NCBI RefSeq assembly: GCF_003073045.1 | Contig: NC_037602.1 | Location: 4,506,872-4,570,871, forward strand | Length of the DNA stretch: 64,000 nt | Source of the DNA: Pomacea canaliculata | Taxonomy: Eukaryota > Mollusca > Gastropoda > Architaenioglossa > Ampullariidae | Direction: 5' to 3' | Shown: positions 3,122 through 63,627 of the stretch, piece by piece | Layout: each line of letters begins with the position of its first letter | Numbering within the stretch: position 1 is the stretch's first letter | Translations under genes and position numbers: made by a program | The notes under the pieces: model-generated | Told to the model about the DNA's origin: nothing | Databases searched by the model: none | The model's input: the letters and a program-made list of their open reading frames with translations, nothing else

Positions 3122-6100
3122 TTATTTGAGAAGAAGAGGAGTTTTTTCGTCTGCTTGCCTTTTTGGCGCCTGAAAAAAGATAATAGTGTCATAAACAGCA
3201 ATAGTAAATGCAACAATTAGTAAAATTGCTCTTCCTGTCAAAAGAGTTTGCAGGTTAAGTGTCTATCTGTTCGTCTTACATTTTTAAGTAAACAATATGA
3301 CTGACGTTCCTTTGAAAAACGAAAGAGTATGTCGATAGGATTGGTAGTTGTATGACTGACTATTTGTAATATTTGCAATTTATTGATTCTAAGGTTTATA
3401 TCTTCTAAGGTTATTTTTCTGACGTTTATTATTTAGTGCGTGTATCGTGTAAAGTCTAAACGGTCAAAATAATAAAGGAACTCAAATGGAGTTGAGAAAA
3501 AATTCTCTGTTATTTGCTGCCAGTCCTATAACACTTTCTCCTCTTCATCCGTTAAGGTTGAATTTGTTTATTTTAATGGTAGGATACTTGCGATCTTATT
3601 TAAATTTATTTATGATGTAGTCATTAAAATTTAAGAAAATTTCTACAGGACAACACAACGTGAAGCAACAACACGGACAAAATAAATTACCTTAGCAGGC
3701 TTTGAGGAAAAACACTGTCCTAAATCTCAATGAGTGGCTTAATGAGATCTTTATTATTGTTGTAGGCACTTCCCTATCGCCACAAGTAACTCGAATCTTT
3801 TTATATAGTCTATCTGGTATCAAATGAAACTGAACACGAGTTTCCCTAATGTTTTACTGATCATATGCATAGCCTTTTTGTCATACCCAGAGAGACTAAT
3901 AATAAAGGTCTGTCGTATAGCCCCTTATCCATAACCCAAGGGCAAACTCAAAGCGCTTTACAAAAATAAATAAATGAATTTTCACAGCACAGTTTACAGA
4001 AAACTCCTTAATTGATATTCATTTGCCACATGCCAACCAAACCACTACAGCAATTTATTTTACAGAAATATAACTGTTATCGTGTAGAACCGTCTCGCAC
4101 CTGCCGTCAAAGATGTTACGGACCGTGTTCTGTACAGGTGCCGCATGTGTCGTTGTAACTCATGCCACGTGTACCAGCTCTGCACGAGTGATTACAACAG
4201 TTTCCCTGATGTACAGGCAAGAAGTCGATTGACATTCTCCTGTTACGATGCTGCATGTTGTTCCCCTCAGAGCAGGTGTCACATGAGCATACTTTACATT
4301 AGGGTAGCTTGTATCCTGCAGCACATCCTTTGTCGCAGTTGCCGGTAGCTAGAGAGATTACACGGAATATTTTCTGTACAGTTGCCGCATCTTTCTCCTG
4401 ATAAGGTATTGCATGTACTTCCTTTGGAACAACTATTACGTGATAATGTAGCCTACACCTTTCTTGCTTGTTTCTTTACAATACAGACTGATATCCGGGT
4501 ACACAACTCGTTGAGTACACCCGATGTCCTGAGTTACATGCTCTTCCCTAAGCAATACACAAAGCTTCTTGTGCAGTGGACACCGTACGACCCGATGCTG
4601 CACGTCTCATGTCAATATTGTAAACAATATAAACTGTACACTGTTCAGCCTTGTTCGCACATTCCTGTTACAGGTGACCAGTTCCCACATCTTTGAGCAG
4701 TTTACAATGTAACATGAATTGCTGCATACTCACAATTAAACTGCACACAATGCTAGAAACAGTTTTTGTACCGTTGCTGTATTTTCACTTTACGACCAGC
4801 CAACGATGGACTGGAAATGTCGATATTCAAGCTATATTCCTATAGTGCAATGGAAAATGATAGCATTCCACAACATTGACGCTCACTACTGAATTCATCA
4901 AGGTATTTCTGTCAACTTCACTGCGAGCGACAGTACTGCGACAGGACAACATCGCAGCTTGCGACAACGATTGCAGAAACAGATTCAGAATCTAAACTGA
5001 ACACAACTGATGCACGGAATGAAATAAGGCAAGATGGCGAAGACGTTACCGATGAAAGAAAATGCTCCAGAAAAATAAGACAAGTTGTGAAGACACAAAA
5101 ACCAATCAAGAAAGATAGGCGATGGTGTCACGGATCCACATATCGCCAGCACACACAAACGGACAAACGGATAAGACGAAATGTGATAAAGATCTCCCCC
5201 TCTAGTGACAGCTAGTCAAAGGGACATTACTCTCAAATCCATAAAAGTATTCTCAGACGATTAATGGTAGACGGGAGCTAAAAGCTTAATCATTATTCTA
5301 CAAATTACTTCTCGTGGCTTAAACGATAGACAATCCGGTCTTTTTCAAATTTAATTATTTTATGTTGAAGTTAGCGCACGATGTTCCTCTTGTTTTCGGA
5401 CAGTTTATCATCAAAATTAGTGTATCATGTGATTCACCTTCATACGTATAATCTTTATTTACATTAGAATGATTACAATCGACTCAAGCGAATTACTGAC
5501 ACTTTTTTTCCCGTACATATCAATTATTAATTTGTATTATTCACTATTTTTAAATTATCATAATTTGGATAGGAAAGAAGATATAGTATACGAAAAGAGA
5601 GGTGAAATGTAGAAAACATAATTTATTATGTTTTGCTAATTTTTAAAAAAGGGGGCAAATAAAAGACTATGTTTACTTCCAGATCTTTGGAAGAAACTCC
5701 ATTAATACAAATACCAGGAGAATCAACAGCATGACCAGCAGCAGCATCAATACCCGCAGCATTTCTTTCATCAAAGCCTTCTGTTGGCAAATCAATCTGC
5801 AATATTACGACGCATTTTCTCCATTACTCCAAGAAAAAAGTCTAACAATAAAAGCAAGAATAAACAAAATAATGTGTCTCTACGTATGAGTTTACATGTG
5901 ACTACGCTCAAAAAAGGGTTTTACACATTTCCATGACAATTCCAGACTATAAAATCTGTTAAAGTCATCTCGTAACCTTCCACAGCTCTCTTTAGTATCA
6001 GTTGGATGAAGTGGAGGAAATACACCGAGTCGTCCGAGTATCGAACCGCCAAATATCCTTTCTTTCGGCTTTACACGTTCCGTTGCTATTTCCCACTCAG

Positions 6101-9100
6101 TTATTATCTCCCCTCACTTATTGTTTTATAACCAAACAATGCATCTTGGACCTTACATTCTGATAACACAAATGGGCATACAACTTAAATATTTGAAATA
6201 TGTTATTATTTTTCTTTACTATCCTAGTGAGAAGAAAATTTTCATAAACCTTAAATTATTAAGAATGAGATGATTACCTCGCTGCATATTGTCTGTAGAA
6301 TTTTCATCTGCCCGATGGTTATCTTGTCCTTCAACTGTGTAAAATTTTCAGCCGTAAGACTTTTCAGTAGATGAAGGTTCATAAGATCTTCATCCACAAT
6401 GACAGCTAGGGTCTTTGGAGTCAATCCTTTGAACTTTTTTTTTAGTTCTAGAAATGACAATTTGTTGACAAGTCTTGATGAAACAAATATAAAGTACCAT
6501 AAACAGGATACTCCATATAAACTAATAATTTTATTTAACCACTGTACCATTGTGGAGTTTATAAATACCACGAAATACAGTTTTATGCTGCATTTACCAT
6601 CTATCTAAAAGTTAGATACAACCAGAGATGGTATTGTTGATCCTACATACATTTTTAATGTTAAAAGCATCTGTCATATTTTATATTTTAATCAGTAATA
6701 TTAAGAACAAATACAGCAAATTCTTTTCTCCATAGAATGTTTACCACATAACCATCAGCAAAAGTGATATCCACAAATTCCAAAACATCTTCAAAATGTA
6801 AGTAAACAGAAAAGAAAGAGAATAGAATGTGTACAACTATTTTTTATATCAAGGATAACAGAAGAACATTATAAAAACCATTATCTTTATCTCTCTTTCA
6901 ACTTGTGGTTCTTTTTGTTTCTTATAAAACTTTATATAGCTGAAAAGTATATCTTTTAGATTTGTGTAATCTGTTTCTTGTATAAACTGACAGTGGAATC
7001 TACAACAATATAAAGATATGTATGATGTGATACTAAAAGACATTTCTACGGCATAAATCATTTACATCAAAATTCTTTAGAGTTAACTTTTACATCCAGA
7101 AGCCCGTGGCTTAATAAAAGCTGTCAAAACTCGACTCATTTTCCTTTTGGTTCAAATAGCTCATTAAATACTCAAACTCACTCTCTTCTCCTTCAGTAAT
7201 CGATTTCTGAAACAAACATAGGTATAGACTAATTAGCCTCCTAATTTCTTAATGCAAAATAATGCGTGCTTAGGGATCAAGTTATCGGTTCAAAGTTTGT
7301 CTGAGCCTGAGGTAACAAGCATATGAGTACCTGATTTATCGTCGCGGTGTAAGTAGATGACTGGCATCCGCAACCGTAAGCAGGATAGACTATTTACACA
7401 CACTGAACTTTAAAACAACTAGCTATGAAAATCTTTATCATCGTCTCTCGTTACTTTTTCAGTTTCTTGTGAACACGATGGGTGTTCCACAAGAAGAAAA
7501 TATAAAAGCTCCGACGAGAAGAAAGCACTGGTTCATATGCACAATTATTTATTGTAGACCATAAACTAGGTAATGGCTTCCCTCACCTCTGCTTTGTCGT
7601 TCTGGGGAAAGCGGCTAAACAGAAATGTCCTCTGGCAAAATATATTGTAAATAATACCTGCATTAGAAAAACGTGAGCTTAAATTCCTTAGTAAAGAAAA
7701 CGATAGTTCATCTGATCTACACTAAACTTTATAGTTTATACTATTCGTTGTTCTTTCTAAGGACGTACTACACTAATAAAGGAAACTTTTGGATATGGCA
7801 TCAACAATTAATTATTAAATTCTCATTCCAGTAAATGAAAATTCCATAATTTAAAAATATTTTTAGAATATTTTCTGCAATTATGTCAGTAACAGATGGT
7901 AGAGATGTTGACGGCCATAGCGAATAATCTCATTCACTCTCATGTCATATCGCAGCATCCTCATCAACCTCAAGGTAACACTACTGCTAATACTGTAATT
8001 TTCGCCCTGATGTATCTGTTCATCGCTGTTACTTTAAGCTTTCTGTACATATATTACTCTGGTAACATCGCGAATGAAAGACAACACACCACCGTACATT
8101 ATAAGCTCATTCCTTGTCACAGAATAACGATGCAGAGAAAGAAGTTGAAGTGAGGTTACTTACAGGCAGCAAACGTGAAGAAACTAAGACAAAGAACGCC
8201 TCCTGCAACGGCTGTCAACAGGTTCCCTTTGCGTTCTTCTGCTTTCGAGGTGCAGTTTCCCTCTTGTGTTAAACATTCTGCAAACCTATATTAAGCACGT
8301 GACAAATTCCGTTTACGGTAGTGTAAATGTTAAAGAGAATGGTTACATTCATTATAAGTTTCTTCATGATTGTACAATATTTTCTATTACTATTACAGAG
8401 CAGTATGAACAACGACATAACTGTTAAATATTTATTTCATACCAGAGGCAAAATTTATTTATAAATGTTATAAACTAATTTTGTATTTTATTAATAATCC
8501 CTTTTTAACAGTTCTGTTTTATAATCATGTAATAAATTATTATAATTAAAGCAATAAACAGTTACAATTAAGTTATAACCATAAACAATTTCATTTTATT
8601 TTAATTTTACTAGTTATAATTGCGTGATACTTTATTATTCCTACTAAGTACAGTGGAACCTCGGTTAGCGAACGCCTCGGATAGCGAATTTTTCGGTTAA
8701 CGAACAAAAATTTCGCTAAAAATTTGTCTCGGATAGCGAACAAAATTTCGGATAACGAACAAAAATTTCGTTAAAAATTTGTCTCCGATAGCGAACAAAA
8801 TTTCGGATAACGAACAGCCACGTGAACCACACGTGACCGACCAGCATGTAATCATTCGCGCTCGAGACACAGTTACGATCAGTCGCTCCTTACCTGTGCG
8901 CATCCTTCTTATTTAGTGATTGTTGTGCTTTATTTTAATAAGATAATCCTCAATCATGGCTCCAAAGAAGATTAAGAGCAAGTAATAGTAGTGAGGTAAT
9001 GACAAGGAAGCGGCCAACAAATGAATTGAAAAAGGAAATGATTTCAAAGTATGAAGGTGGCATGCGTCTGTCGGATATGTGATGTCGTCTTACCGAAGAG

Positions 9101-10608
9101 TTTTACAAAAAAAGGCAGAAGAAGCAGACACTGGACAAGTTTTTTTCTTCAACCTCAAAGCTACAGAAAAGGGAAGTCTCCCAGATTTTATAATGTCACG
9201 TGTGCTCATGGAGAGGGGAATCAAAGCAGTAATTCCACCCCTTCCTCCCCACACCTGTTTCCACCCACGCCGTCAAAACGGCAAGTTTTCTGATGTTTAA
9301 ATGCTTTCGTTAATGTTTTTATGTTTATTTAACTCCATTTATATTGCATTATAACTGTTCTCATTAAAACAAATACCTATATACAGCCTGTAACTTTCAA
9401 ATAGCGAGTCAACAGGGGCTGGGAACCAATTAAATCTATTTCCTTTATTTCTTATGGAAAAAATTGTTTCGGATAACGAACATTTCGGTTAACGAACAGC
9501 TTTCCAGAACGGATTAAGTTCGTTAACCGAGGTTCCACTGTATAGTGATTCATGAATGAACTGCTGAGCTTTTATTTCTTGTTTTCCTTTTGATTTGGGT
9601 TTCTCCCAAGTTAATCTTAGTATTAGCATTTCTTCATCCGAACAATTATCGGAACAAAACCATAGAATTGACTTAATCTGAGACATTGTGCTGCTGCTGT
9701 AGTGATCACAAGAACTCATGCCTCATAAAACAAAGGGAGACTAGTGAGTATTGCTTGGCAATGCAGTTATTTCCCCTGCTTTTGCGTTCGATGTTCGCTT
9801 TGTCACAACGGGTACCCCTAGAATCGCCGTTCTTGCCTACGATTCACTACAAGAAAGAACTTATCTCAAGCCATAGAATTTTCATTAACATTAGCTTTAC
9901 TTCTCATCATTAATCTGGAAGAAATTGACTTTCGTCTCGCCTACCTTGGGTTTATGCCACTGTAGACCACCCAGGCTATTGCAAGGATCAGAGGACGACG
10001 AAAAAGGGTAAAAGACGACAATGAACAATATTTGTTGATAATCCAGCTAGCATGTGCAGCCGTCCAGTGGGTATCTGAAAACATGCAGGCACACCCACAA
10101 GAGCACGCACACACACACACCTATGTAGATATATTTTGTGTTGTACTTCCTATGTGTATCGATCTTTCCATTGTTACGTCACCATCGTCATCGTCGTCAA
10201 TATCATCAAATAGAAAAACTCTGCATCTTGAAAATTATGTTTATTGTGCAATCGCTTGAAAGTGGGAGCCAGAGCTTTTTAAAATTACCAGGGAGAAGTC
10301 CTTCGGGGCATTAATACTATATGCAATTTGAAACGATATCAAATTTTTATCTATAATTTTAAATATGTTATCTTCCAATAAACAAACTAAATCACATGGC
10401 AGAAGGTGGTAAACTTACCAAAAACAAAAATTAGGAAGGCTGGAGAAAATGCTAGTGACAAGGTGTATACAAAGCGCACGCATCCTCCCGTGCAAGGACA
10501 GCAGAATAGTTCATCGCCCCATAGGTAGCCCGCAAACCCCAGAACTACAAAGGTGAATATGGAAGCTTGTCTGCTGATCCAAGCAGCGATGTCGTTGAAC
10601 GTATTCAT
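3122..10608 (-). CDS. CALHM-like channel with C-terminal SAM-like domain (gene A)
   Basis: Predicted large-pore ion channel of the plasma membrane, calcium homeostasis modulator (CALHM) family. Eight exons join in phase: 10608-10419, 10074-9945, 8285-8164, 7657-7587, 7206-7182, 6447-6278, 5796-5677 and 3169-3122, total 876 nt, 291 aa. Visible: a first membrane segment, Cys-Pro-Cys at 37-39, a second hydrophobic segment, a Trp98-containing third segment, cysteines 111 and 118, a fourth segment at about 128-150, an acidic linker, a SAM-like helical domain at 181-236, and a Ser/Ala-rich tail. In human CALHM1 four cysteines in this arrangement form two disulfides (42-127, 44-161); here the loop between the last two is only 7 residues. 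The start is supported because genes B and C give the same 190-nt exon. The last exon ends early at TAA compared with gene D. Exons 7-8 are the least certain. The SAM assignment rests on pattern only. Confidence 0.75.
4085..4700. repeat. Degenerate repeat with recurring TGTACAG / GCCGCAT words
   Basis: Inside the last intron of gene A, the words CTGTACAGGTGCCGCAT (about 4130) and CTGTACAGTTGCCGCAT (about 4375) recur amid variants of TGTAC and TGCATGT. This looks like an old, strongly diverged tandem or palindromic array. The Cys-rich open frames on the plus strand follow from this composition and are not called as genes. Confidence 0.3.
8651..9540 (+). mobile_element. Tigger/pogo-like non-autonomous DNA transposon, copy 1
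   Basis: Begins CAGTGGAACCTCGGTTAGCG and ends with the matching inverted repeat CGAGGTTCCACTG, flanked by TA on both sides, as expected for Tc1/mariner-pogo elements. Inside, near 8956, a short frame starts MAPKKIK and breaks at stops. It is followed by a piece like the start of a Tigger DNA-binding domain (KRPTNELKKEMISKYEGG) and then a TLDKFF-type C-terminal piece, so most of the transposase has been deleted. It sits in intron 2 of gene A. GATAACGAAC and CGTTAACGAA words repeat near both ends. Confidence 0.9.
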
Positions 10609-26820: not shown

Positions 26821-27827
26821 CGTGGGTCCATGACACTATAGATTATCCAGGCTCCTGCGAGGATACAAGGGCGAGTAATACCTGACCGCCTTCTGCAGAA
26901 TTTCTCACTACAGCAGTTTTTACATGTGATAGAAAGTACCCTGCAGTTGGAATCTGAAACATTTATAAGGAGTCTCATGTGTTCTCTACAGCAGCTATCT
27001 GATTATGGACATTCCACATTAAGGGAAGATGGTACAATAAATAGTATCAGTTCGACCTCTGAAGAACTAAGACCACTCATTATTCCAAATTGCATTACGT
27101 ACAAGCAAGCAACAAAAACGAAATAATATGTGCACAAAATATAAATCGTACTAATAATAAAGAGGCACCGGAGCATTTTGTTTCGACCATTCAACAAACT
27201 GACCGGGTTGTACATACCCCCAGTGCTAAATACTTTCTGAAAGTATCACTCAATCTTAACCTATTTGGCATTAATAGTTACAGTTCAGACAAATAATAAC
27301 AATGCACTAGGAAATCACTGAAATCGTTTCTTAAATGCTACTTAACCTACAACAAACTAAAAGCAGGATGAACTAAAAAACCTGTTTATGAAAAATATAA
27401 GGAAACAACAAAATCTGATGCTGTACCTTAGTGAAGTTAAGGTAAGTATATATCACAGAGATATAACAACTTTTGTTTAAAAACAATCTTCAAGTAATAG
27501 TTTAATACATTACAAAACAATATCAACTAAAATCCTATTGGTTGAATTTGAAATGTTTTTACCAATACAAAAGTTTCGAACATCATCAAGTAATGTTTGA
27601 ATAAGGCGTTGATCGGTTTAGGGGAAAGGGAACTTACCGGCAAGAAGAAGAAAAATGGCCGGCGACAATAAAAACGCCACAGAATAGGTGATTCTCATAC
27701 TTTTGTCCACACATGGACAGGTAAAATACTTATCCTCCCATATGTAGTCTGCGACGGCAATTACAGCAAATGTAACTAATGAAAAATAAGTCTTGACCAT
27801 TCCAGAGATGTCTTTCATAAGTCCCAT
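26821..27827 (-). CDS. CALHM-like channel, partial (gene C, exons 1-2)
   Basis: Two exons join in phase: 27827-27638 (190 nt, ATG start, donor CCG|GTAAGT) and 26953-26821 (133 nt, acceptor TGTTTCAG, donor ACG|GTAACT). Together they give 107 full codons plus a split one. Features match genes A and B: a first membrane segment at about 15-30, Cys-Pro-Cys at 37-39, a second hydrophobic segment at about 47-63, and a third segment with Trp99 ending in DPR before the donor. Exon 2 is unusually rich in cysteine (about residues 67-83), unlike A and B. No later exons are found before the gap, so this is either a pseudogene or a gene cut by the assembly. An upstream in-frame ATG at 27863 exists, but 27827 gives the family exon length. 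Confidence 0.65.
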
Positions 27828-36563: not shown

Positions 36564-37430
36564 CTGTTATCTCTTTACACAATAAACTTTGAAACTCGCT
36601 AAGGGTATTTTCACAAACCCTTTTTTTCTACAATATATTCATATGGAAAGGGAACAGGACACGAAACAGGTGGTCGAATGAGTTGTGTGGGAGTACTTAG
36701 GTGCGATCGTCTCATGACGGCCGCTATTTCTTTGAGGTCACCGTGTCATGTCACAAGTACAAAATTGTGAAGATGCGGGACGAGGCTAAGAATAATTTGT
36801 GTTGCTGTTTTGTATTTTATTACGAGTAGTCTGATCTTTTACTGGGTCTGGAACTCCGACAGTTTTCCTCGCTGCTATGAAGTCTTGAACAAATTATTCA
36901 CATTTCAATGATACTGTTTTTAGACGCAGGCTTAAGGGTGGTCATCTGCATCCCTCTTTAGCACAAAGGTTCCATTTCATTGTTCGCCTCCCTTTACGGC
37001 AACCGAAAAGAAGTTAATAATGTTAACGAAAACAGCAAAATCAGCACAACAACATCAGCAATTAATTAAATTGCTCTTCATCGTAAAAGATTTTGCAGGT
37101 TAAATAAAATTAAGCATTTAATTTGCGAAAATTATTCCTCTTCATTTACTGTCATTCCTATAACACTTGCTCCTCTTCATACTTTAAGGATAGTTTTACA
37201 GAGACTGTGTATCTAGGGTTTAAATCCTGCCTTTTATAAACTACGCACCCTTGCTGAGCGGATCAGTCTAATCCAATGTGAACAAAAACAAATATCTACC
37301 CATGCGAATTTTAGTCTGTGTAAGTAAACACATTTTCAATATAATGAATGAAAATGCAAAAGTAAATAAACAGAATATATCTGTTATTAATAAACTCAAA
37401 GCATATTGGCATTTTTCTGCTTTAAAAATG

Positions 37431-39746: not shown

Positions 39747-42700
39747 TTACGGAATGTAAACCACGTGACTAGCACAAGAATCGGCATCAGAACTAGCAGA
39801 GCTACCAGCAGACTGAGAAGCAGCGGTAGCAGTATCTTCAGCATTTACTAGACCAAAACCTTGTGGTGGCAAAATCATCTGTAAAATTACGAGACATTTT
39901 TTCTATTACTCCAAGAAAAGAAACCATGTCTTTGCACTCCTTCGATGATATATCAGCCAAATTTAGGCTCGTATGGTATTACAGACTGAAAACAGTAACT
40001 CTTTTTGAGGTTAATTTCTTCTGAATTCGATGATTGAAAATCATTAAAAATTATATTTTTGTGAGTATTGTTTTCTTTCAATGAACATAATGTGAATACC
40101 TCAGAAGACATTTGACTAAAACAAAGGTAAACTTTGTAGAAATTCTCTTTACATTTATTATTTTTTCTGTAAATGTTTCAAGCAATGGGAAACTCAAATA
40201 ATGTGTGTACTTGTATATTCTGAGGAGAATTTTCATTCCTATGAGAATCAGCAGCATGATCAGCAGAACTACTAGCAGACCGATCAACAGCAGAAGAAGT
40301 AGCCTGAACATTCATTTCACCAGAACCTTGTGTTGTCAAATTTATCTGCAAAATTGCGACTCATTTTCTCCATTACTCCAAGGAAAAAAAAACCCAGACT
40401 GAACAAAAGAGTGCAACAAGGAACGAAATAATGTAATCAAAATCTAAAAGGACTAAAATATTTTTAGGAAAGAAAACGTTTACTTTTCTCAAACTATTCT
40501 ACTATTGACAATAAAAGGGTTTTAACAGAATTACAATTTAGTATATCTGAATCTTGATTGTTTTTATTGTAGTTATTTTGTCTGTGGGGAATAAAGTCTT
40601 TTTTTTTAGGTCCGTGCACTCCTTCCATGATGTATCGGCCAAATATACCTCCTACGTTATTATACTGAAGACATTAAAAACCTTTTGGAGGAGGCGTCGC
40701 TGTAGTCATTATGCTGTAATTGCCATTCTTATCCTAAACCCTTAAAACTGTATAATAACTGTGTAATAGGTTTAACACTGCTAATGATAAAATTTATAGA
40801 AAGATTAGCCATGAAAGATCAATTCATCGCAAAAAAAATAAAAGAAACTGTCTGCTTAAAAAGTCTTGAACAGCTAAAAGGTGTAAAGAAAAGACATGAA
40901 AGGTATATGACACATGAAAAGAAACAAAAAATAAAAGCTGACTCAGTGACAAAAAGATAGTGTCCCCCATTCTGCATACTACGAAATTTCATAAATACTA
41001 CATTATTACATGTGATCTCGCGTTAAGGGCTATGCTAGCATTTTCTAGAGTAATAGTTTGAGTGGCCGTATTTTTACATAAATTTCAAGGGCCTGTTATA
41101 TCACTGATATTTTTTTCTTTCTGTTATTGACACTAGAGGCAAAACAATTCTTATCCGTTAAATGAGTTCACGCTCTACTTACGTTTCCGCACTTTTCTTT
41201 CAGAGTCTTCCACTGACCCATGTTTATCTTGTTCTGAAACTTTATGAAGTCAGCGTCTTTAAGTTCCTTGAGGACTTTAGCATTCATGAGACCTTCGTCC
41301 ACAATTAACGACAAGATCTCCCAGTCCAACCCCTGCAGGTTCCTCTTTAATGCTGAAAATGGGCACGAATTGACAGCATTTATGAGAACAAGCATAAACA
41401 TGTAGCAGCGAAGACAACCAAAGTGACATAATTTGGCGATACCAAATAGTTTTGTCATTGAAACATGTGTACACCGTTACTTGAAATGTAAATGTGGCAA
41501 TTGATAAGTACTCAATATGAGCAAACATCGTAAATGCAAAATTAGTTCAAGACGTGAATTCCTATGGATGACGCTAAATAGGGTTCCTATCTTCCTTTTG
41601 ATACCTTACTAGTGAAGTTTTCGTGGGTAAACTTTATTCCAGTTCACTTGATAATTCTTGCTCTGAGCGAGGTAAGTATATGACCAAAATAAAAAGGCTG
41701 CAGTAAAATGGAATTTTGCTCTCCATTTATATCGTGGTCTTTGCATCTACTTAAATTTTATGTTAAGGAGCCACAGCAAAACATCACAGGACGAACTAAC
41801 GACAGAGACAAAAGTCAGTTTGTTTTAAATATAGATAAATGGGAAACAGAGGAAAGAGGCAATGTTTAGTGCAATAATAGTGAGTGACGCTGTCTTTATT
41901 ATATAAAATAATATATATAATGAAAAACAGACACACTTATATCATGCAAGAATTGAACTACGATTTAAATTGAATTTAATAATTATAAATTCTAATTTTC
42001 TGTTGAACTGTATTTTCTTTAAATGTTTTTTTATTTAGAGGAAAATCTAGTCCATTAAAACATGCTAGCTTTTAGTCTAGATTAAAGTAAATAATTAAAA
42101 CGTTACTTTCTATGAAAGTAGCGTACCATTGGTTTGATGATTTTTGTCAGAAGACAATGATGGCAAGGTAATGTACGGTCTTTAGGGAGTTTCCATGCCA
42201 TGGAAATTTTGACTGCAAAGGTGGTATGTATAGTTATTTCAAATCCAGGTGCCATCACAAATTGTATCCATTTTCTTTAGATTGCATTTTCTTTTTCGCT
42301 TGAGACAAATCGATGTGAAGATATGCTTCCTACATTCATAGATTTTCTTGCATTTACACACTTCCCACATCATCGATAAACTCTTTGTAAATCATTGTAA
42401 CAGGTATCTGTGTTTCTCATTTGTTTTTGTCTAGGAACATATTATCTTTTAACACTAATTATGTATTAGTTATTTTATATTTATCTGATTAAGGATATCA
42501 TAAACATTGCTTATTATTTACGAGTTTTACCAAAAATCAAAATACCAACACACATAAACCAGAGGCAGCCATTAGGGTTGGCGACTACAGCAGCCGCATC
42601 AGGGATTAGTGGGGCGGGAGGGAAGCGATAGGAGGCTTTTTTAATTTCATTTCTTTTTTTATCATTACTGGTCTGCACAGAGAGTGTAATCTATCTTGGT

Positions 42701-42892: not shown

Positions 42893-45800
42893 GCAATTAG
42901 AACTTTAAAAATGTGTGGGTGGCAAAAGAATCACCAACAAATTTCACGCTTGACAAGCGAACCATTTCGTTTATTTACATACTTACTTTCTTCTTCTGGA
43001 TCTGACGTCTTTGAAAACCGTCCACAGCAGCCAGCACCTATAGCTCGAAGAAGTTAATGACACTTCGCCATAATCCACTTAAATCCATTTAATTATTAAG
43101 AGATCATGTGCCATAACTGCACACTGTACTAAAGAGAATTGTTGTCTGTGGAGGGAAAATTAACTACTACAATTATTTTACAATAAAAAAATTGTAACTT
43201 CTTAGCATGTCTATGTACATTTAATTGCAAATATACGTCAAATCCTGACATAAAGGTTATCAGTATACATCTGTGTTTAACCTTTCATACATGCTAGTAC
43301 ACAAATATATTATTTCAAAAAAAACATTAACTTCAGAAACTATTTGTAGTTCATTTAATAGATGACTGTATTCTATTATTTTATTATATTTCCATGTCTA
43401 AGGATAATATAGAAATGGCTAATTACTATTAAAGAAAAAAAACCGAACACATCTACACAAACATATGCACCTATACAGAGAGATTTGAAAAATGAAAAAT
43501 TATGTAGGTGATAAAAGATCCACCACCATTTTCTACGTTTTTTCAAGCCAAGCATTTTGTCACACCTAGTCACATAATTAACACAGTATTAACCGCACAA
43601 CGAGAGCCTGGACGGGAAGATCCCTCTTCGGAAAGGCTTATGACGCGTGCTGGTGATTTCGGTTGCGGCCCTATGCTCCACTGGGGGAGAATAGGAACAA
43701 GAAGAAGAAAAAAGTCACATAGTGTCATACTTACTTTTCTCTTTTGAGCCTTCTGTCCCAGGAGCCTGCAGTAAACAAAAGAATCACGATTTATAAAATG
43801 CAACTTTTTAAAAAATTTTTCACTTCAATTCAGAACTGGGACATAAAATGTTAATGCTTAAAGAGATAAAAAAAAAAAAAAGAAAACCCACAAAGGGCCC
43901 CAAAACAGTTGTGCTGTAAGCACAGAGTCACGGAAAAATACACAATTGTAAGCACGCTCACGCATATGTATCTACATGAATTCCCGCATGTGGAGATAAA
44001 AATACATTAAATGTATTGTTTTGTTCTGAAAAAGCTCTGAAAATGTACTTTCCCAGCAGTTTTGTGTCCACGTTTTGTGGTTTGAAGGAAGATCATTATG
44101 GCCTCGATGTAGATTGCCTTGTTATCAATAATGACAATGGACAGTACATTTTATAGCGCTTTTTCTCAGCATCAGCCAGACTCAATGCGCTTAAAATGTA
44201 AACACAGACATAAGAACAATAATGGTGTCAAAACAAAGAGTTCAGTGTTTTTTCAATATGTATTAGTAAACAGATAGAGTAAAATTTGGACTTACCATTT
44301 CTATGTCGCTTTTCTGATTGCGCTTAGAATTCTTTGAAAACTTTTTCCAGAAGCCGACACCTATAGAAGAAGCTTGAAGAAGTTAACGACACTTCTCCAT
44401 AATTCACTTAGTTTCATTTAATCATTAAAGAGATCATGTGCAATAAATTCACACTATACTAGAAATAATTATATCACGTCTATGCCATAACCAAGAAGCC
44501 CACACGGCTTGAGTTTACCGGCGCCTTGACTCCACTCACGGCCTCCAGCCGTCCTTTCAAACAGAATCTCCCCACTCTCCTCGGCGCCATAGACGTTGTA
44601 GCTTTAACGTCTCTGTCGGCGCCTAGGTCAGAACTGCCTCGAGGGACGCTGCTCTCAGAGGGTCACCACCCGTTGGCCAGGGACTGTGACCAATCGCCAG
44701 CGCCCACGACACCCAAGCCACGTCAAAGCGCGTGAACGTTTTGTGCGCCAAAACCGTGGACAGGGAAGGGAGGGGCCGGCGCAGTGCACCCCCAAAGGCT
44801 CCCACCGGCAGCACACAGCACTCACGCCGACGTCACCGCTACAGTTAGCGGGAGAAGACCTTGACCTTTTCCCCGCGAACTGAACAAAACTAGCCGTCGA
44901 AATCGAGACACGCGACATTCAGATACTCTTTGTAACTCATCGTAATACATGTAGTTGTCTGTATTTGTCATTTATTTTGATCTCGGAACCTACTATCTTT
45001 TTTTAAATATTTGTAATATGTTAGTTATTTATTAATAATTCCCTGGTTAAGGATAATGTAGAAATGGCCTATTATTTACGAAAACATTTAAATATACACA
45101 CACACACTCACACGTACACAAATATATACACACATATATATATAGAGAGAGAAATCAGAAATCTAAAATTATGTGGGTTACCAGAGTTACAAAGAATTAC
45201 AAATTCCACTTTTGACAAGCCAACCATTTTGTCACACCAAGTCACATATTATACTTACTTTTTGTTTTTGAGTCTTCTGTACTAAGATTCTGCAATAAAT
45301 AGAATATTGTATCATCTGAGAACTGGGACATTAAAATATCGCGCTTTCCTGTCTCTAACATTTTCATTTTCGCGCGACATAATAGACAAAGTTTCTGTAA
45401 ACTGCAAGAGAAATAATTCGACCATGGCTGATGTGTATAAGCGAACTTAAATTTCTTGGCCGACTTAACCGCAAATTTTACTCAGCTGAGTTCGTGGCTG
45501 GCGGTGTGTATGAGCGGACTCAGCTGCTTGCTTAGTTACGAAGCAGTCATAAAGTTGAGTAAGAAATTTTGTACTTAGCAGACTTGAGTTGTCTTGTGCA
45601 CACCGAGTTACTGTACTTAAAGGTAAGTCAGCCAACTTAGGCTTAAGTTCATGTTTAAGTTCGCTTATGCGCACCAGCTCATCCACAAATATGCATGTGC
45701 ACATGTCCGAATAGAAAATGTGTACCGATTTCATGACCAAATCTAAGAACCAAAATTTTAACAATCTGTAATCAAATAATTTCTAAAATATTTTATCGAA

Positions 45801-48800
45801 CACTTTTTTAAAGACCTCAAGTAATATTAAGCCAGGTATTCCTTTAAAAATAGTGTTTCGTGTTTCGCATGAAGATCACAGAGTCTCGGTGGAAGCGATT
45901 ATAGACTGGTTTGTTGTTAATATGTCAGGGTAACCTGCAGGTACAGTAATGTGCACTTACCTCTGATATGCCGATCTGCTGATTGTGCTTAGTCAAGATT
46001 GTCTTTTTCCAGCAGATATGGTACACAACCCCTGTAACAAGAAGACATTAACGGTACTTTTCCATAATCCACTTAATTCCATGAAATAATTAAGATATCA
46101 GGTGTGTTTGTCAGAGACGAGAGTAAAAATGCATAGTGTGTAGTTGTGAATTTGACAGCATGTAATGATTTGTTTATGATACTCTCACCCCAAAGCGTTT
46201 TCTAGATTTTTTTGTTTATGGTATCGATATTAATTTCCTTTTGTATACATCGCTTGAAACAACTATGCATCTTAACAGTAATTCTGAATGCTATTCCTAT
46301 TAACAATAGATATACTTCAATATATCTCTAAATTTCTTCACAAGCAATTTCTTATTGCCAGCTCAGTAGATAAGCAACTATCACCAAACCCACAGAAATC
46401 AGCACCACACGAGTTTTAGATACTCAACTTTGATAACCCGTTGTATGTAATAAATAAAGCATGTTATATGCTTTCTTTGAATACCAAATGTTTCCGCTCG
46501 ACCACTTAGCAGCAATGATAGCATTTAGGGTAAACCTGCCTGTCTGTCTCACCACACAGAAATCTGGTTGATGCTTTCACTGAAGCACCTTTGAACCTTT
46601 GAACCTTTGCAGGCAAAGAGATAGAACTTCTCTGTTGTAACTACCCCTTTTAGTCCCCATATCTAGAACGCATACACTAACACAGGTGTGATATACAAAT
46701 CAAAGAGATCTTTGAAATCTATAAATGCAACAATATCCTACTTTGGGCAAGCTATTTCTCGATTGAAGTATATTAATTTAACAATATTTTTACATTTGAG
46801 TATTTCCTAAGAAGTTGTGTGTGAATTTCCCGCCCTGAACATGATGAACTGTAATGCAGACACATCTCTGGAAAGCTCACAGGGGCGCTATTTTCAATAA
46901 TCAAAGATGTGCTATGGATGCAGATAAAGAATAAAATATAATCAACCCTGGGTCACTGGGTCACCAGTTTTATCCCAGATCATTTTTACTAAATGAGACT
47001 CAAAGAAAGAGAGGAAAACAACCCCAAAATAGCTTTTAAGTACAAAGCAGTGAATTGAAACTGCATGAAAGCTATAAAAGTAGCTAAGTAGAACTCGATT
47101 AGAGCCAATGTCGGATCATAAATGATGGAATAGGAAGAGGTCACAGCGGAAAAGGGCCTAAAGCTACTAAAGACCCCTACAAAGATAGGTCAATGCAAAA
47201 CTTTAGAAATCGACAGAAACGACCGCCTTCTCACAGAAACCACTGCTGTACAAAGCTGATTGGCTGAATATTGTAATTAACTATGCAAAATCCCGGTGAA
47301 GACAGAATCCAATGTCTTTTAAAGCAAACAGTCCTGCAACCCTACCAGTCTTACCCGAAGAGATTGATATCCCAGGTGGGTTAATAGAAGAATATTTACA
47401 ACACTGGCGAGATCTTTTCCACATCTTCATTGACTTTAACAGGTATTTGACAGAGTCTGGCACAAAGCTATTTGGAAAGTGAAGCAAAGATTTGATATCA
47501 AAGAAGTCCTTGTTCAAAACAGATGCGCTTTACAAGCGATAAACAGGCTCAGTATTGCTCAGCAACCAGTGTGATACGTCATTCAGCTAACAGTGGATGT
47601 CTGCAAAGGGTGCCCCCTATCCCCTCTACGGTTCAACATCTCTTCGGAAAACATAAAAATATTTCATGACCCTTTATATCGAGGAGATCTCTATAGGCGA
47701 TATACACTAACGTCCACGAAACAGCAGAAATCTGCATGAAGAGAGAGTACTGTTTTGAGTACTTGAAAGCCACGGTTGTCAAGGTATCATTATTGTAACA
47801 GTGACAGAAGCAATGACCACTAAGGACAGACTCTAGTGTGGCAGCATTGTCAGGTTTGCAACAAGTACAGACTGCAAAATTCCCTTGTACTTTGCATCCT
47901 GCTTTATGGATGTAGACTTTGATTCCGCTTAATGATATGGGAAGGAAAATCCTGATCTTTGAGACCAAGTGCTCCAGAAGACTGGTTCAAATCCCCTATG
48001 TGCAACGCAAAACCAATGACTCTTGAACATAGTCGCCACAGTCACGGACAAGCTGGACGCGGGGCAAGCTGGACTATGTGATCTGCAACTACTCTCTGAG
48101 ACCGCCTTTAGGAGTACCGGGATGGGGTCGATGTCATAGGGAGTTGAGGAAGAATTGGTGGAGTGGACTGGTTTCAAGCAGGATCTGCGTATTACAAGAC
48201 AGGTGGAAGCTAGTCTTGTTAGCCACTGAGTCTATTTAGTTCATATCAACGACTAGTACCGGCAGACCAGCAATACCGTCCGTCATATCATAAATCAGTG
48301 TACCTGTACACATATTAAAAATCAATTATTATCAATAAATTGTTCTTGATCATCATTTAACCTGGAGAAATGAATCAGGACAGACTTGAATATGGATAAC
48401 AATGATAACAAATAAGAAAAATATCTTAAAGGGGGTTACTTACTGCCAACCATCAGAAAAAGACTAATGCCAAGAACGACTCCTGCTATCGCTGTCTTTA
48501 TCAAACTTCCATATTCGGTGATATTTTTTTCCGTGTTGCATGTACCGTCATCTGCAATGCAGCCTGAAAACCTACAAATAATATATGGCACATGCTATTA
48601 CAGTCATATTAAATAGTAACATAAAGACCAAAAAAAGAACATATGGTTTTTCAAAACTGCTAGTAGGTCAGAATAAACTACGAATTCACCAAATCTGAGG
48701 AAATCTTTTGTTTACTCGCAAGATATCAGTTTACAAACATCTAAATAGTTACCTGTTCACATAATGAGGTAAGACACTACTTTTTTAATCTCAAGTATCA

Positions 48801-50848
48801 CTTCGACAAGATAAATTTATCATACATCTTTATGATAACTTATAAAGCATTGCACTGTTTTTTCACTTGCAACTGGAACTTAGAGATTTTAGTAAAATTC
48901 AAGCAAGCTCCTTTGATTAAGTCTGTTTCGACATATATAACAGTTTCTTCTCACCTTAATAACTTTCCACATCCATTACATTGATATATCCTAGCCACAC
49001 TAGCAATGTTGTATATTTAAAATGTTGAATAGTGTACTTAATAATCTTTCACATAAAAATATTTTAGATGTCAACGTAAAAAGTTCTTTTGGTGCACTCT
49101 TTTTTCCTTTTTTATTAAATTTTTATTTCGACTTGATTCTAATAGCAAAGTGATCAAATTTTGCATATTGCAGGTATATAGAAATCCGTTTTTTAGTTCC
49201 TTTTAAAATATAAATAAGTAAAGAGATTGAACTCCACTTACTTTTGGTCTAGAAAGAAATAGGCTATCCACCCTCCTGCAAGCAGTATGGGACGAATCAC
49301 AGGTTTACAGGAGGAACACCAACCATTAATCACGCGTAATACATACACAGTCTTCCAGGATATATCTGGAAACAAGCATAATTGTAGATTACCAAGCATA
49401 TATACATACATGTACATGCACGTACGATTTGTGTGTATATAAACAGGGCTTCTACTTACGAAAAAAAAATTGCGTACAGTACGCATTAAAAGTTCGGAGG
49501 ACCCCTTCAATTTTCGTCAATGGGGTCCCCTTCAAATTTGGGCGAAGAACAGGGACCCCTTAAAAATCTGAAGAAGGGGTCCCTGGGACCCCAAAAAATT
49601 TAGCTTATGCAGAAACCCTGATATATATACAAACATATCCTTTTGCATGTATGCATGTGATGTATGTTTTAGAAAGCACTGAAAGTATGCTGAATATGTA
49701 GGTAGGAAAAAACATAACTTAAACTGTGATTGTAAGATCGGTAACAGTATTGTGGTAAAGTGACAGAGGCAGCACAAGTAGGAGGTTGTTGTAAGCTGCT
49801 TTCTAAGATGATGAACATTAGGGGTTAGACCGGTAACCCTTTACTGATCTCTTAAATTATTGTATCCATTGATTGGTACCAGAGTACAGATTGGCGGCGG
49901 TGGTGGTGGCTATTTATATGCAAATACTCCTCCTAATTGCTCGCCTCTTTTACAATAAAACAAAAATCTCAAACACCTCTTTCCCTCCAATCAGATCATA
50001 CAACAAATGTGCATAGCAAAAACAAAAAATGTTTTCCTATCCATCTCTCTTTGTTGCTAACCATTTCATACGTCGGTGATACTTTTCCTCTTTTTCCTCG
50101 AGGCTTCTTTGTTTACAATGCTCATTATGACATAGGGATCCTTTCTTCTTCTTTTGTCTGCCTAGGATCTGCTATGCCGTTGAATGTAGCACCCATCTAA
50201 TCTTTCCTATGAGAGTATCTTCCTTATTTAAGGCAACCAGTTTACTCCCTCTTCTTACCTTTACGGTTTTGCAATCTTTGGGGGGGTGCAGTTTTTCAAG
50301 AATAATTCATTGATTTTAGCTGGACCACATTTGCGTTTATTGTCGGTAGGTATCCCAGTATTGCGGAGTACAGTGTGTTGATTTAGGTATTACAGAGTGA
50401 TTCAGTTACTTGGATTAGGTCCTATTCTGTTTTGATTCTACAAATGATACGGGTCAGTCGTAGGCACAGTGGTTGAAAGTGTATGTTCCTATGACAATGA
50501 GATTAGGGTATCATGGGTTATTCTTTTTCAATGTAAGACCTGTTTACCTACGTTGATTAAGTTAGAGCTGCTAGAGAGAAAGTCAATATGATGTGATTTT
50601 CATACTTAAAATTAAAACGACATATATACTTCCACCATTTAAACAGCAGTGAACTTACCAAAGCAAAGTAGAAGAGCAGCTGGAGAAAATGCTAACGAAA
50701 ATGTGAACACATATCGTCGCCAAATCTCCCCACATGGACAGAAAAACAGATCATCGCTTACGAAGTGGTTTCCAATCCCAAGAACCACCAGGCTAATCAG
50801 GGAAATGTGTCCCTTGAGCCAGGTAGTGATCTCCCCAAACTGTTTCAT
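39747..50848 (-). CDS. CALHM-like channel with amplified linker exons and SAM-like domain (gene B)
   Basis: Predicted membrane channel of the CALHM family. Eleven exons join in phase: 50848-50659, 49365-49242, 48571-48444, 46031-45961, 45289-45259, 44360-44296, 43765-43735, 43037-42987, 41352-41183, 40345-40211 and 39878-39747; total 1128 nt, 375 aa. Visible: Cys-Pro-Cys at 37-39, a Trp96-containing third segment, cysteines 109 and 116, a fourth segment at about 127-150, a basic post-membrane helix, then two more shortened copies of that helix exon (183-203, 215-230) separated by short acidic linkers, a SAM-like domain (232-287), and two Ser/Ala/Asp-rich tail exons. Exons 1-4 total 513 nt as in gene A. 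The last exon either ends at TAA 39747 or splices on at CC|GTAAGT (39750). An acceptor TTTTTTCAG upstream of the ATG suggests a 5' UTR exon. Introns hold a LINE relic, a GC-rich repeat and a microsatellite. Confidence 0.75.
42819..42892. repeat. (CAGA)n microsatellite
   Basis: About 18 perfect CAGA units in the intron between exons 8 and 9 of gene B. Confidence 0.97.
44520..44935 (-). repeat. GC-rich dispersed repeat, reverse copy
   Basis: Reverse complement of 19270-19700, inserted in intron 5 of gene B just upstream of exon 6. It has the same GTGCTGTGTGCTGCCGG and CCAATCG words. It is shorter than the 19 kb copy and has its own indels. Confidence 0.7.
47080..48230 (+). mobile_element. Decayed LINE reverse transcriptase remnant
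   Basis: The plus strand, in broken frames, reads DVCKGCP next to LSPLRFNIS (about 47597-47641), the polymerase motif of LINE reverse transcriptases, with further disrupted sequence after it. Many frameshifts and stops. It lies in intron 3 of gene B, antisense to the gene. Confidence 0.5.
49480..49620. repeat. Short palindromic repeat with GGGGTCCC boxes
   Basis: In the gap between exons 1 and 2 of gene B, boxes GGACCCCTTC, GGGGTCCCCTTC, GGGACCCCTT, GGGGTCCCTGGGACCCC alternate in both orientations and could fold into hairpins. It may be a small MITE or a part of one. Confidence 0.5.
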
Positions 50849-58520: not shown

Positions 58521-58964
58521 TAAAGAGTTAGCAACGAGAGGTAGTCGAGAGGACACGGCAGTATGGCGAAAATTTGTAGAGTAGTTGTAGCGTTGAAAGA
58601 AAAGTTAATATTAATAATAATGTGAACTTGTATCGCGTAGCATCATCTGTGCAGACCAATAATGATAAAGAAAAGATAAGTGAACAGTGAGGTACATATA
58701 GGGCTCCGTGGGCATAAGTCAGGTGGTCCACGGCTGGCAGTCGTCATATGTCAGCAAAGTGATGTTTAAAGTGATGCATTCCTCATTAACATTTTAATTA
58801 AAAAGAACGAAGTACGTAGTTTTATGTCAATTTATTACTATACTACAAAAGGACATTTAGTTTTGAATTGTAATGAAACAAATGCGGCAATTTAAATTTG
58901 AAATACACAGTACAGACTAATTTTTATGACTTGGTGGTCAGTTATATTTTTTTACTTAAGTAAA

Positions 58965-58999
58965 GTGGTCCGCGGTCCGAAATACTTTGAGAACCACTG
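58965..58999. mobile_element. hAT-type terminal repeat
   Basis: The minus strand reads CAGTGGTTCTCAAAGTATTT, a typical terminus of Charlie-like hAT elements. No matching opposite end is identified other than the CAGAGGTTCTCAACC at 56828. Confidence 0.6.
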
Positions 59000-60480
59000 G
59001 TTTACACCAACGCACTTTATTAATTATTTATTAATTTATTTACATTTTAAAATTTCAAAAATATCTCTTTTACAATTATAATATTACACACAGTTTAATA
59101 GACACACATTAGACAACACAAATTAAAGCTATTAAAGACAGATGGAAGATATTACACCACTGTAATACATGCATATCGTGCAAAGCAGATTATATAGTTA
59201 GTTTATTCTTTGCTACTCCTCGAGGAACAAAGTGCCGCAACAATACCTCGCCAGCGGACACGGTTTAGGGCAGCCCCCTTCAGTTGGTCCCTGTGGTTAA
59301 TGAGATTAATAATCTGGTGAAAAATACTGTGCAATATACTCATAAGCAAACAGTATGCAGGTATGTAACAAACAAATGTAAGAGATGTGTACACAATGTG
59401 CAAATCAGGATAAGGACGCCACGACCTTTGACCTCACAGGCGGTTTGTGTTGCGGGGTACAGCGAGAAGAACGCCACTTCTGGTGATCACGCAAGCGTGT
59501 CAACCTTATTATATACGCGGCACATCACCCCCTAGCGGCACAGAAGACAACCAGTAAAAGATGCTGCTGTTACCAAGAAAGGAAATGGCTGAAAGTATCA
59601 CCACCCAATTTATGCGCCGAAAAATGGCAAAATAGCAAGACACACACACTCTCTCTCTCTTTACAAACAAAAGAAATAGAACAATACATTAGAATATTCT
59701 TTCCTTAGACAATAAAAAGTGAAAACGCGTAAGTATGCAAATACAAACCACATTAACATATATATATATATCCATATTATCCCTTGCCATGGGTATAGAA
59801 CATAAATTTACCGGGATTGTCAAAGCTAGTAGTAACGGATGATATCGCTTCAGCAAGCCATGTTAACACACTATACTGTGAGTCTCCATGAAGAGGAAAT
59901 TCTTCTTCGTGTTATAACAATAAACAAAAGTACGACTGTTTCTGACAGACACATCAGTACCACCGCTCCACTTGGGATCCTTCACATCGGAAATCACATT
60001 TTAATGATGTTTTGTCGAGAAGATCTGCTTCTTTGGGAAGAAGAGGAGTTTTTTCATCCACCTGCCTTTCTGGCGCCTGAAAAAAGATAATAATGGCAAC
60101 AACAGCAATAGTAAATGCAAGTAATCGTAAAATTGCTCTTGCTATTAAAAGAGTTTGCATGTTAAGTGTCTATCAAGTTTCGTTCTCCTTTTTTTTTTAT
60201 TAAAAAATATGCTTAACGTTGAATTGACAAACGAATTTGTATGTCGATAGAATTGGTAGCGAGTAGTTGTATGACTATTTGTAAGACTTTGAATTTATTA
60301 ATTCTAAAGTATATGTCTAAGGTATATGTTATTCCTCTGATGTTTTATCATTTAATGCGTGTATCGTGTAAAAAGTCTAAATGGTCAAATAAATAAAGTG
60401 TCTCTGTACGGCACCAAAAGAAACTGAACACACATTTTCCTAATGTTACGCTAAAAGACCGGTGAAAATCTCTGCATTTG
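59000..60480. repeat. Duplicate of the gene A 3' region
   Basis: 59003 onward and 59790-60400 match 2525-2620 and 2870-3450. The region includes the last exon of gene D. Confidence 0.75.
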
Positions 60481-63400
60481 TTTTTTTTTTTCTCCAGTGA
60501 AATTTTTAATACTGAGAGAATCAAAGAATATGTTTACTTTCAGATTTTGGGAAGAATCATCATGACCAGCAGAACAGTTAGCAGACTGACCACTAGCAGT
60601 ATTTCTTTCATCAGAACTTTGCTTTGGAGAATTCATCTGCAATATTTTAACAGATTTTCTCAATTTCTCAATTGTTTTCTTTAATTTTAGTTACAGTCTG
60701 TGAGGAATAAAGTGGTTTTCTGGATATGTACACTTCTTTGATAATATATCGGACAAACCAAGCCTCTTATGTTATTACAAACTGCTTAATGGAAGCGTCG
60801 CTGTTGTGATTTAGTTGTGATCAATTTTCTTATTCAAAACCCTTAAAAACTTGAGAACTGTGTAAAGGGATGAACACTGCTTATGACAAATTTCATAGAC
60901 AGATTAGACATGAAATGTCAATTCATCGCAGATGAAATAAAAAGAGCAATATCTGCCAAAGAGGTCAAGGCAAGTTTGAAAGACAGAAAAGACACGTAAC
61001 ACATCTGAAACAACCTAAACATAAAAGTGGTGGCAGTGACAAACTGCCTCTCTGCATTCGACCCTGCCCACCGCCATCTTAATAGTAAAAACTTGACAAC
61101 AAATGTCGCAGATATTAGCAATAAGACTTGAATTAGTTGATTGTATGCTTAGAGTGATCAAATATTCTAACATAATGATTGTATTTCTTTGCAATTGGCT
61201 TGTAGTTTCTGTGGATAGAAGTTTGTAGTTTGTTTTTGTTTGCTTTTCCTTTCTCTCTTCATAGTCCACCTTTGGTTACAGAGAACTAGGATGTCGTTAA
61301 ACTCAGGGTTTACTTGACGCCCTAACACTTTCTGAGCTGTTAACAGTATCACCTCTTTCATGTTTCCAGTAAGAGTATCAATATCACAGTCCACCGGATT
61401 CAGTGCGACGAATAAAGGTGAGATCATCAGTTTTTGGTAATGTCATTAGTCTTTGATATGATATGCCTTTTTGCTGTCGGACTGTGTCATATCCTCCGCC
61501 AGGGTCCGGCATTGTTTAGTCTAGTCATTCTAGATCAACTTCCTTTCTTCATTTTCTACCCATCCTGTTATTATATGGTTATTACTTCTTTGTGTTTGGA
61601 ATTTTCTTCGGCTGTTTTCTTTCCTTCTTTAAAGTCCTTCTTTGGTCATGTAAATCTTGGATACCCTTTGTGTTCAGCTTATTTCTTCTTCCTTTGACGC
61701 CTGAGCACTTCCTGTGCTATTTCAATACTGGTGGGAGAGTTAATAATTTCATTGGTAGAATTAGTTGTACAAAGTATGTGAAACAGTGTAGCGACGAAAA
61801 TGTCAGTAGTGATGAGAGAATTAGTTTATAGGCAGCTGTCTCTACGTAAGAGTTTGCATGTTACTATGCTCAAAAAAAGGTTTTACCATGTTTCACACAT
61901 TTCCATGACAATTCCAGACTATAAAATCAGTTAAAGTCACCTCGTAACCTTCCACAGCTCTCTTCAGTATCAGTTGGATGAAGTGAAGGAAATACACCGA
62001 GTCGTCCGAGTATCGAACCGCCAAATATCCTTTCTTTCGGCTTTACACGTTCCGTTGCTATTTCCCGCTAGGTTATTATCTCCCCTCACTTATTGTTTTA
62101 TAACCAAAAAATGCATCTTGGACCTTACATTCTGACGACACAAATGGGCATACAACTGAAATATTTGTAATATTTTATTATTTTCCTTTACTATCCTAGT
62201 GAGAAGAAAATTTTCATAAACCTTAAATTATTAAGAATGAGATGATTACCTCTCTGCATATTCTCCGTAAAATTTTCATCTGCCCAATGGTTATCTTGTC
62301 CTTCAAATTTATGAAATCTTCATCCGTAAGGCTTTTCAGTAGATGAAGGTTCATAAGATCTTCATCCACAATGACAGCTAGGGTCTTTGGAGTCAATCCT
62401 TTGAGCTTTTTTTTTAGTTCTAGAAATGACAATTTGTTGACAAGTCTTGATGAAACAAATGTAAAGTACCATAAACAGGATACTCCATATAAACTAATAA
62501 TTTTATTTAACCACTGTACCATAGTGGAATTTTTGAAAACCACGAAATACAGTTTTATACTGCATTTTCCATCTATCTAAAAGTTAGATACAACCACAGA
62601 TGGTTTTGTCCTACGTTCATTTTTTATGTTAAAAGCATCTGTCATATTTTATATTTTGATCAGCAACATCAATAACAAATTCAGCAAATTCTTTTCTCCA
62701 TAGAATGTTTAGCACATAACCATCAGCAAAAGTGATATCCACAAATTCCAAAACATCTTCAAAATGTAGATAAACAGAAAAGAAAAAGAATAGAATGTGT
62801 ACAACTATTTTTTATAAAAAGAATAACAGAAGAACATTATAAAAACCATTATCTTTATCTCTCTTTCAACTTGTGGTTGTTTTTGTTTCTTATAAAACTT
62901 TATATAGCTGAAACGTGTTTCTTTTAGATTTTTGTTATTTCTGTTTCTTGTATAAACTAACAGTGGAATCTACAATTAACAATATAAAGATATGTATGAT
63001 GTGATACTAAAAGACATTTCCAGAAATCATTTACATCAAAATTCTTTAGAGTTAACTTTTACACCCAGAAGCCCGTGGCTTAGTAAAAGTTCTTAAAACT
63101 CGACTCATTTTCCTTTTCGTTCAAATAGCTCATTAAATACTCAAACCCACTCTCTTCTTCTTCTTTTTCTTCAGTAATCGATTTCTGAAACAAACATAGG
63201 TATAGACTTATTAGGCTCCTAATTTCTTAATACAAAATAATGCGTGCTTAGGGATCAAGTTATCGGTTCAAAGTGTGTCTGAGACTGAGGTAACAAGCAT
63301 ATGAGTATCTGATTTATCGGCGGGTGTAAGTAAATGACTGGCATCCACAACCGTTAGCACGATTTACACACACTGAACTTTAAAACAACTAGCTATGAAG

Positions 63401-63627
63401 ATCTTTATCATCGTCTCTCGTTACTTTGTCCGTTTCTTGTGAACACGATGAGTGTTCCACAAGACGAAAATATAAAAGTTCCGACGAGAAGAAAGCACTG
63501 GTTCATATCCACAATTATTTATTGTAGACCATAAACTAGGTAACGGCTTCCCTTACCTCTGCTTTGTCGTTCTGGGGAAAGCGGCTAAACAGATATGTCC
63601 TCTGGCAAAATATATTGTAAATAATAC
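59954..63627 (-). CDS. CALHM-like channel, 3' half of a gene A duplicate (gene D)
   Basis: Five exons join in phase: 63627-63557, 63185-63152, 62419-62250, 60636-60538 and 60076-59954, giving 164 aa to a TGA. They match exons 4-8 of gene A: post-membrane segment, acidic linker (three codons longer), SAM-like domain with a TDEDF helix start, Ser/Asn-rich tail and a C-terminal exon. The last exon is 40 codons against 15 in gene A and carries DEKTPLLPKE, which looks like an acidic dileucine sorting signal. Exons 1-3 should lie beyond 64000; the sequence to 64000 matches gene A intron 3. The intron at 60637-62249 has grown by about 1.1 kb, in part from a LINE fragment. Donor of exon 5 is GTGGGT, weaker than GTGAGT in gene A. 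Confidence 0.7.
61245..61430 (-). mobile_element. LINE ORF2 linker fragment
   Basis: The minus-strand frame reads AQKVLGRQ, then a gap, then DILVLCNQR, matching the region between endonuclease and reverse transcriptase of LINEs such as the one at 51.2 kb. It lies in a gene D intron and is absent from gene A. Confidence 0.6.

Follow-up and report, generated by a model that had tools for sequence, protein, structure and literature searches.

A tandem array of divergent CALHM-like genes with a predicted SAM-like exon in Pomacea canaliculata

Introduction

Can the pore of a CALHM-type channel persist in nature without its customary helical tail and with another module in its place? The question is raised by a 64,000-nt stretch of the Pomacea canaliculata genome (RefSeq assembly GCF_003073045.1, contig NC_037602.1, positions 4,506,872 to 4,570,871 of the forward strand; hereafter the window), in which an earlier note, made from the letters alone, had seen four minus-strand units of CALHM layout, three of them joined in phase to a 170-nt exon of SAM-like pattern. 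We consider, with a probability of roughly 70%, that the locus is a tandem array of divergent CALHM-type genes in which a SAM-like domain replaces the helical tail and has a putative role in ring assembly.

Results

Within the window, tblastn placed three copies of the first exon (units A, B and C, 190 nt each) and three SAM-like exons (units A, C and D, 170 nt each), all on the minus strand, and the exons carrying the third and fourth transmembrane segments (TM3 and TM4) were located by comparing open frames between units. The features run from position 3122 (last base of the unit A stop codon) to 63627 (first base of unit D exon 4). Read over positions 4427100-4619800 of the window's contig (C13; 192,701 bases, the window with its flanks), the array lies entirely on the minus strand and, with falling coordinate, runs D, C, B, A, F, G, the flanking DNA contributing the SAM-bearing genes F and G as well as exons 1-3 of unit D; a SAM-like exon lies downstream of exon 1 in five of the six array genes, B being the exception. 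The four units announced in the earlier note stand in part: A and C show, inside the window, the Cys-Pro-Cys motif (CPC), the TM3 tryptophan and the C-x6-C pair before TM4, but exon 1 is present there for A, B and C only, unit D enters at its exon 4 (exons 1-3 are found to the right of the window; its gene model has the CPC) and B consists of exons 1 and 2. Among the enumerated splice candidates and the flanking DNA of unit B we found neither an exon 3, and hence no pair of cysteines ahead of TM4, nor a SAM exon, none of the candidate later exons being credible.

The gene structures agree exactly with the NCBI models. Exons 1-6 and 8 of unit A were placed from the sequence before comparison with LOC112554650 (P0001), whose eight exons reproduce the unit letter for letter (the seven predicted plus exon 7); LOC112554648 (P0003) matches unit C over twelve exons, including an exon 4 chosen beforehand as the top of two splice candidates, and LOC112554649 (P0002) matches the in-window part of unit D. 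The proteins of all three are annotated only as ‘uncharacterized’. The 170-nt exon is entered in phase 1 and left in phase 0 in A, C and D, every intron checked in these units starts with GT and ends with AG, and the same exon junctions recur in the three models, so that the proposed in-phase joining of pore exons to the 170-nt exon is supported by the gene models for three units, down to the microexon 5, which measures 25 nt in A and 34 nt in D. An exon of 25 nt, we infer, would be hard to predict in a gene model without RNA. Unit C has four small exons in place of exon 5 of A and D; these (45289-42987, minus) form two similar pairs, of 31+65 and 31+51 nt, directly before the SAM-like exon. 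An extra membrane helix suspected after the SAM exon of unit A (open frame 3262-3125) was discarded, the stretch preceding the last acceptor and coding starting at 3169. In unit G the first intron seems to start with GC rather than GT (C13:4481593), the 190-nt exon being kept.

The attribution of the pore to CALHM was upheld by profile searches against the sequences of the PDB. Profile A10, built from A, C, G, B and the distant gene E, matched CALHM proteins in 12 of 12 cases (CALHM4 best at 7.9e-9, then CALHM5, 6 and 2, and weakly CALHM1 and chimeras); a profile of A, D, C and B (A4) returned two CALHM4 sequences (6.5e-5 and 7.2e-5), six unrelated rows (0.51-1.3) and CALHM5 (2.3); the five SAM-bearing genes on their own (A9) matched nothing there. 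Since A9 is without a match and A10 has them, the link to CALHM runs through the intermediates B, E and G. The genome search with the Pfam profile Ca_hom_mod, in which four candidates were scored, gave at least two matches, E and B, and none for A, C and D. Both B and E (35.4 bits) exceed the Pfam cut-off; A, C and D taken singly matched no CALHM-family profile. The CPC is present in 7 of 7 genes (A-G), and two cysteines occur in the TM3-TM4 loop of A, C, D, F, G and E (B is without that exon); A, C, D, F and G have in common the CPC at residues 37-39, four hydrophobic segments (three in B, from two exons; three over threshold in E), the C-x6-C and, ahead of TM4, a sequon for glycosylation. 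The TM3 tryptophan, whose counterpart W114 of CALHM1 is called important in PMC13183375, is invariant in A9 and A10, and PMC7242029 gives CALHM4 and 6 two disulfides.

The snail pore thus resembles CALHM/CLHM proteins (CALHM4, 5, 6, 2 and 1; C. elegans CLHM-1) in its four transmembrane segments, CPC, TM3 tryptophan and cysteines before TM4, the profile matching residues 4-137 of CALHM4. It differs in a shorter TM2-TM3 linker (CALHM4 has 18 more residues in the alignment), in TM3 and TM4 windows only 26 to 33 residues apart in A, C, D, F and G (the CLHM-1 loop spans residues 137-181 in PMC7380676) and in gene structure, with 8 (A) or 12 (C) coding exons. Furthermore, about 30 residues separate TM4 from the SAM-like exon in unit A, too few to accommodate the long helix domain that known CALHM proteins have in the cytosol at their C-terminus; the SAM-like domain stands there instead. 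As this helix domain, usual in the family though perhaps not a defining trait, is absent, we call the proteins CALHM-like, a variant.

The 170-nt exon encodes 56 residues, and its 56 codons are kept in 5 of 5 genes. Its designation as a SAM domain is favoured by the fold of the predicted model and goes without significant sequence profiles: profile searches yielded no Pfam SAM match, and the ASK3 SAM domain (6v0m) appeared as a weak, non-significant match (E 0.68 and 0.84 in two PDB profile searches). The predicted structure of the domain (predicted local distance difference test score, pLDDT, 78.5) resembles several SAM domains, among other folds, with ASK3 SAM ranking second in a comparison that covers the families present in the fold list and does not exclude those absent from it. 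We regard the product, on these predictions, as SAM-like only, through resemblance of fold. In the predicted models the first SAM helix falls mostly outside the exon, and the domain sits on a channel; both points distinguish the snail version from the SAM domains of ASK3/MAP3K15, tankyrase, ANKS3, Eph receptors and Caskin1, none of which matches it significantly in sequence. The helix before the exon is a weak hint in the full-length predicted structure (pLDDT 37.2). In all five copies the domain has an acidic middle and a basic end, a pattern known from head-to-tail SAM pairs, but shuffled sequences reach the split in 1 to 17% of cases.

An unlikely alternative, though the one that survives best, is that a CALHM-like pore carries some other small helical bundle of comparable outline (of helix-hairpin-helix type, what remains of a death fold, or a CALHM tail that was rebuilt) devoid of SAM function. 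Against it, ASK3 SAM came second of four and first of two in the PDB profile searches in addition to its rank by fold. Among death folds, the pyrin profile was matched weakly, at its start and by unit G only (E 0.034). The pyrin domain is a six-helix death fold of about 90 residues, and as only ten residues remain in the exon after the matched part, pyrin or another death fold is disfavoured on length.

Slightly less probable, in our estimate, is that the 170-nt exon is optional, a main isoform reading through exon 5 to a stop (after 23 further residues in A) and lacking the SAM-like domain. In both A and D the frame stays open past exon 5, the exon 5 length differs between them by an in-frame 9 nt, and the exon 5 donors score weakly (A 2.7, D 0.1); against this, P0001 and P0002 splice through, and A and D disagree at 4 of the 23 residues that read-through would add.

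In the comparison of A with C, the SAM exon is conserved in its coding frame (BLOSUM sum 107, against 1 and 40 in the other frames, which alone contain stops), with synonymous sites saturated between the two types. Among young copies the exon is not clearly better conserved than the introns, evidence that is adverse or mixed: A and D are 92.4% identical over the SAM exon and 94.5% over intron 5; A and G 69.4% against 74.3% (55.8% at the start of intron 6); and C and F 96.5%, against 93.1% and 89.0% in introns. In these alignments clear constraint on the SAM exon is confined to the deep comparison, A or D with C or F. The ratio of nonsynonymous to synonymous rates (dN/dS) of the exon is 0.59 in A/D and about 0.6 in A/G; in C/F it exceeds 1, with six changes to go by. 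Constraint is stronger on exon 1 in the young pairs A/D (dN 0.01, dS 0.06) and C/F (dN 0.03, dS 0.12). The fast change of the tail suggests relaxed or diversifying selection. That the array is decaying, with most units duplicated relics without function, draws on these SAM-exon ratios and on the missing later exons of B, and is quite improbable given that A and C are open in every exon and D in its five in-window ones, that exon 1 is constrained in young copies, that deep conservation is frame-specific and that the codon number of the SAM exon is constant across the five genes.

Gene E lies at C13:4.08 Mb of the same genome, 0.43 Mb away and on the strand opposite to the array, and shares with the array genes the phases of the first five exons (0-1-2-1-0) and the CPC. 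No SAM-like exon was found by tblastn in the 19.8 kb downstream of it; a 188-nt candidate exon (position 12027 of the joined L001/L003 stretch) was set aside as not SAM-like by eye, no profile having been run. Three protein searches recovered P0001-P0003 along with P0004-P0006, which are short open frames on contigs that are themselves short; as these searches require shared exact words, and one scored only 8000 candidates, they do not show absence outside Pomacea. None of the 59 viral-contig stretches that matched a pattern encodes a relative, and in open-licence PubMed Central we found no published description of a SAM-bearing CALHM or of these genes.

Table 1. Exons of units A-D by window position (Pfam, tblastn and P0001-P0003 as in the text).
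Feature	Window position	Strand	Content	Basis
A exon 1	10419..10608	-	TM1, CPC, TM2 (190 nt)	matches P0001
A exon 2	9945..10074	-	TM3 with Trp	matches P0001
A exon 3	8164..8285	-	C-x6-C, NCT sequon, TM4	matches P0001
A exon 4	7587..7657	-	TM4 end and linker (71 nt)	matches P0001
A exon 5	7182..7206	-	25-nt microexon, sets phase for SAM-like exon	in P0001
A exon 6	6278..6447	-	SAM-like domain (170 nt)	tblastn, matches P0001
A exon 7	5677..5796	-	linker	located from P0001
A exon 8	3122..3169	-	tail APKRQADEKTPLLLK with dileucine motif EKTPLL, stop	matches P0001
B exon 1	27638..27827	-	TM1, CPC, TM2 (190 nt)	Pfam Ca_hom_mod over cut-off
B exon 2	26821..26953	-	TM3 with Trp; last exon found	open-frame comparison
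C exon 1	50659..50848	-	TM1, CPC, TM2 (190 nt)	matches P0003
C exon 2	49242..49365	-	TM3 with Trp	matches P0003
C exon 3	48444..48571	-	C-x6-C, NIT sequon, TM4	matches P0003
C exon 4	45961..46031	-	71 nt	splice candidate, confirmed by P0003
C exon 5	45259..45289	-	31 nt	splice candidate, matches P0003
C exon 6	44296..44360	-	65 nt	splice candidate, matches P0003
C exon 7	43735..43765	-	31 nt, like exon 5	splice candidate, matches P0003
C exon 8	42987..43037	-	51 nt, like exon 6	P0003
C exon 9	41183..41352	-	SAM-like domain (170 nt)	tblastn, matches P0003
C exon 10	40211..40345	-	linker	P0003
C exon 11	39751..39878	-	linker	P0003
C exon 12	36958..36991	-	last residues, stop	P0003
D exon 4	63557..63627	-	71 nt	matches P0002
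D exon 5	63151..63184	-	34 nt	matches P0002
D exon 6	62250..62419	-	SAM-like domain (170 nt)	matches P0002
D exon 7	60538..60636	-	linker	located from P0002
D exon 8	59954..60076	-	tail with EKTPLL, stop	matches P0002

One block is present twice in the array, as D-C and as A-F: collinear matches of 82-97% identity, counted only above 300 bp, link the stretch from about 84.9 to 35 kb with that from about 18.5 to -16.5 kb (window numbering). Unit G is 72-80% identical to A or D over gene parts and is, by these identities, older than the block copies. The duplicated block includes a stretch with an ankyrin-repeat gene: its open frame (window 12897-14600, minus; Pfam Ank_2 2.9e-35) lies inside the array, and stretches matching the region occur to the right of the window (about 79.5-81.8 kb and 67.7-72.7 kb, window numbering). 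A minisatellite with units of 57-69 bp (window 23.3-24.85 kb) adjoins the 100 N of the window and has a longer sister array at C13:4593-4600 kb, which flanks the other copy of the block on its distal side. Two minus-strand open frames (31010-31801 and 57052-57888) are 90% identical over 243 residues, the latter matching the hAT transposase dimerisation region (E 1.1e-4), and on the plus strand a reverse-transcriptase fragment (33833-34411, RVT_1 3e-17) and a DUF6451 match (51628-51939, 1.4e-12) are probably retroelement remains. At 32253-32444 there are degenerate repeats (42 and 84 bp) resembling GGTTAGGG, with similar translated frames at 58319-58642.

Discussion

We propose that the pore would form a ring of subunits, with a linker, the 56-residue SAM-like helical domain and a final tail following it in the cytosol. 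The final tails of A and D contain EKTPLL, which we take to be of the [DE]xxxL[LI] sorting type and which suggests endosomal or lysosomal traffic of these two proteins; the tail of unit C after the SAM-like exon has no such motif. The cytosolic placement would follow from the CALHM plan, as described for CLHM-1 in PMC7380676; there each tail contacts that of the next subunit, and two rings are even linked through their tails. Because a tail of that type is missing here, a small bundle repeated round the ring would be well placed for such contacts, and the SAM-like domains may assume the function that the lost helices had. They could pack together within and between rings, or they could dock a SAM-bearing partner; we put SAM-to-SAM contacts at a little under even odds and hold docking to be doubtful, the rest of the probability falling to a passive or other role. 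The earlier description of a self-assembling domain on an oligomeric pore is, in this light, a reasonable inference. Only tentatively would we extend it to an animal CALHM lineage that swapped its helical C-terminal domain for a self-associating SAM, an exchangeable module driving assembly or clustering, within an array that is expanding and diverging quickly.

It is debated, according to PMC7380676, whether the size of a CALHM ring is determined by the membrane part or by the cytosolic part of its subunits, and PMC10768655 presents CALHM6 as a single-domain protein. A naturally occurring CALHM-like pore that lacks the usual tail, and may carry another assembly module in its stead, would make the question of ring size testable by comparison, and this natural swap of parts could help to test what holds large-pore channels together. 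Moreover, the array suggests that recombination of the CALHM pore with other domains is possible.
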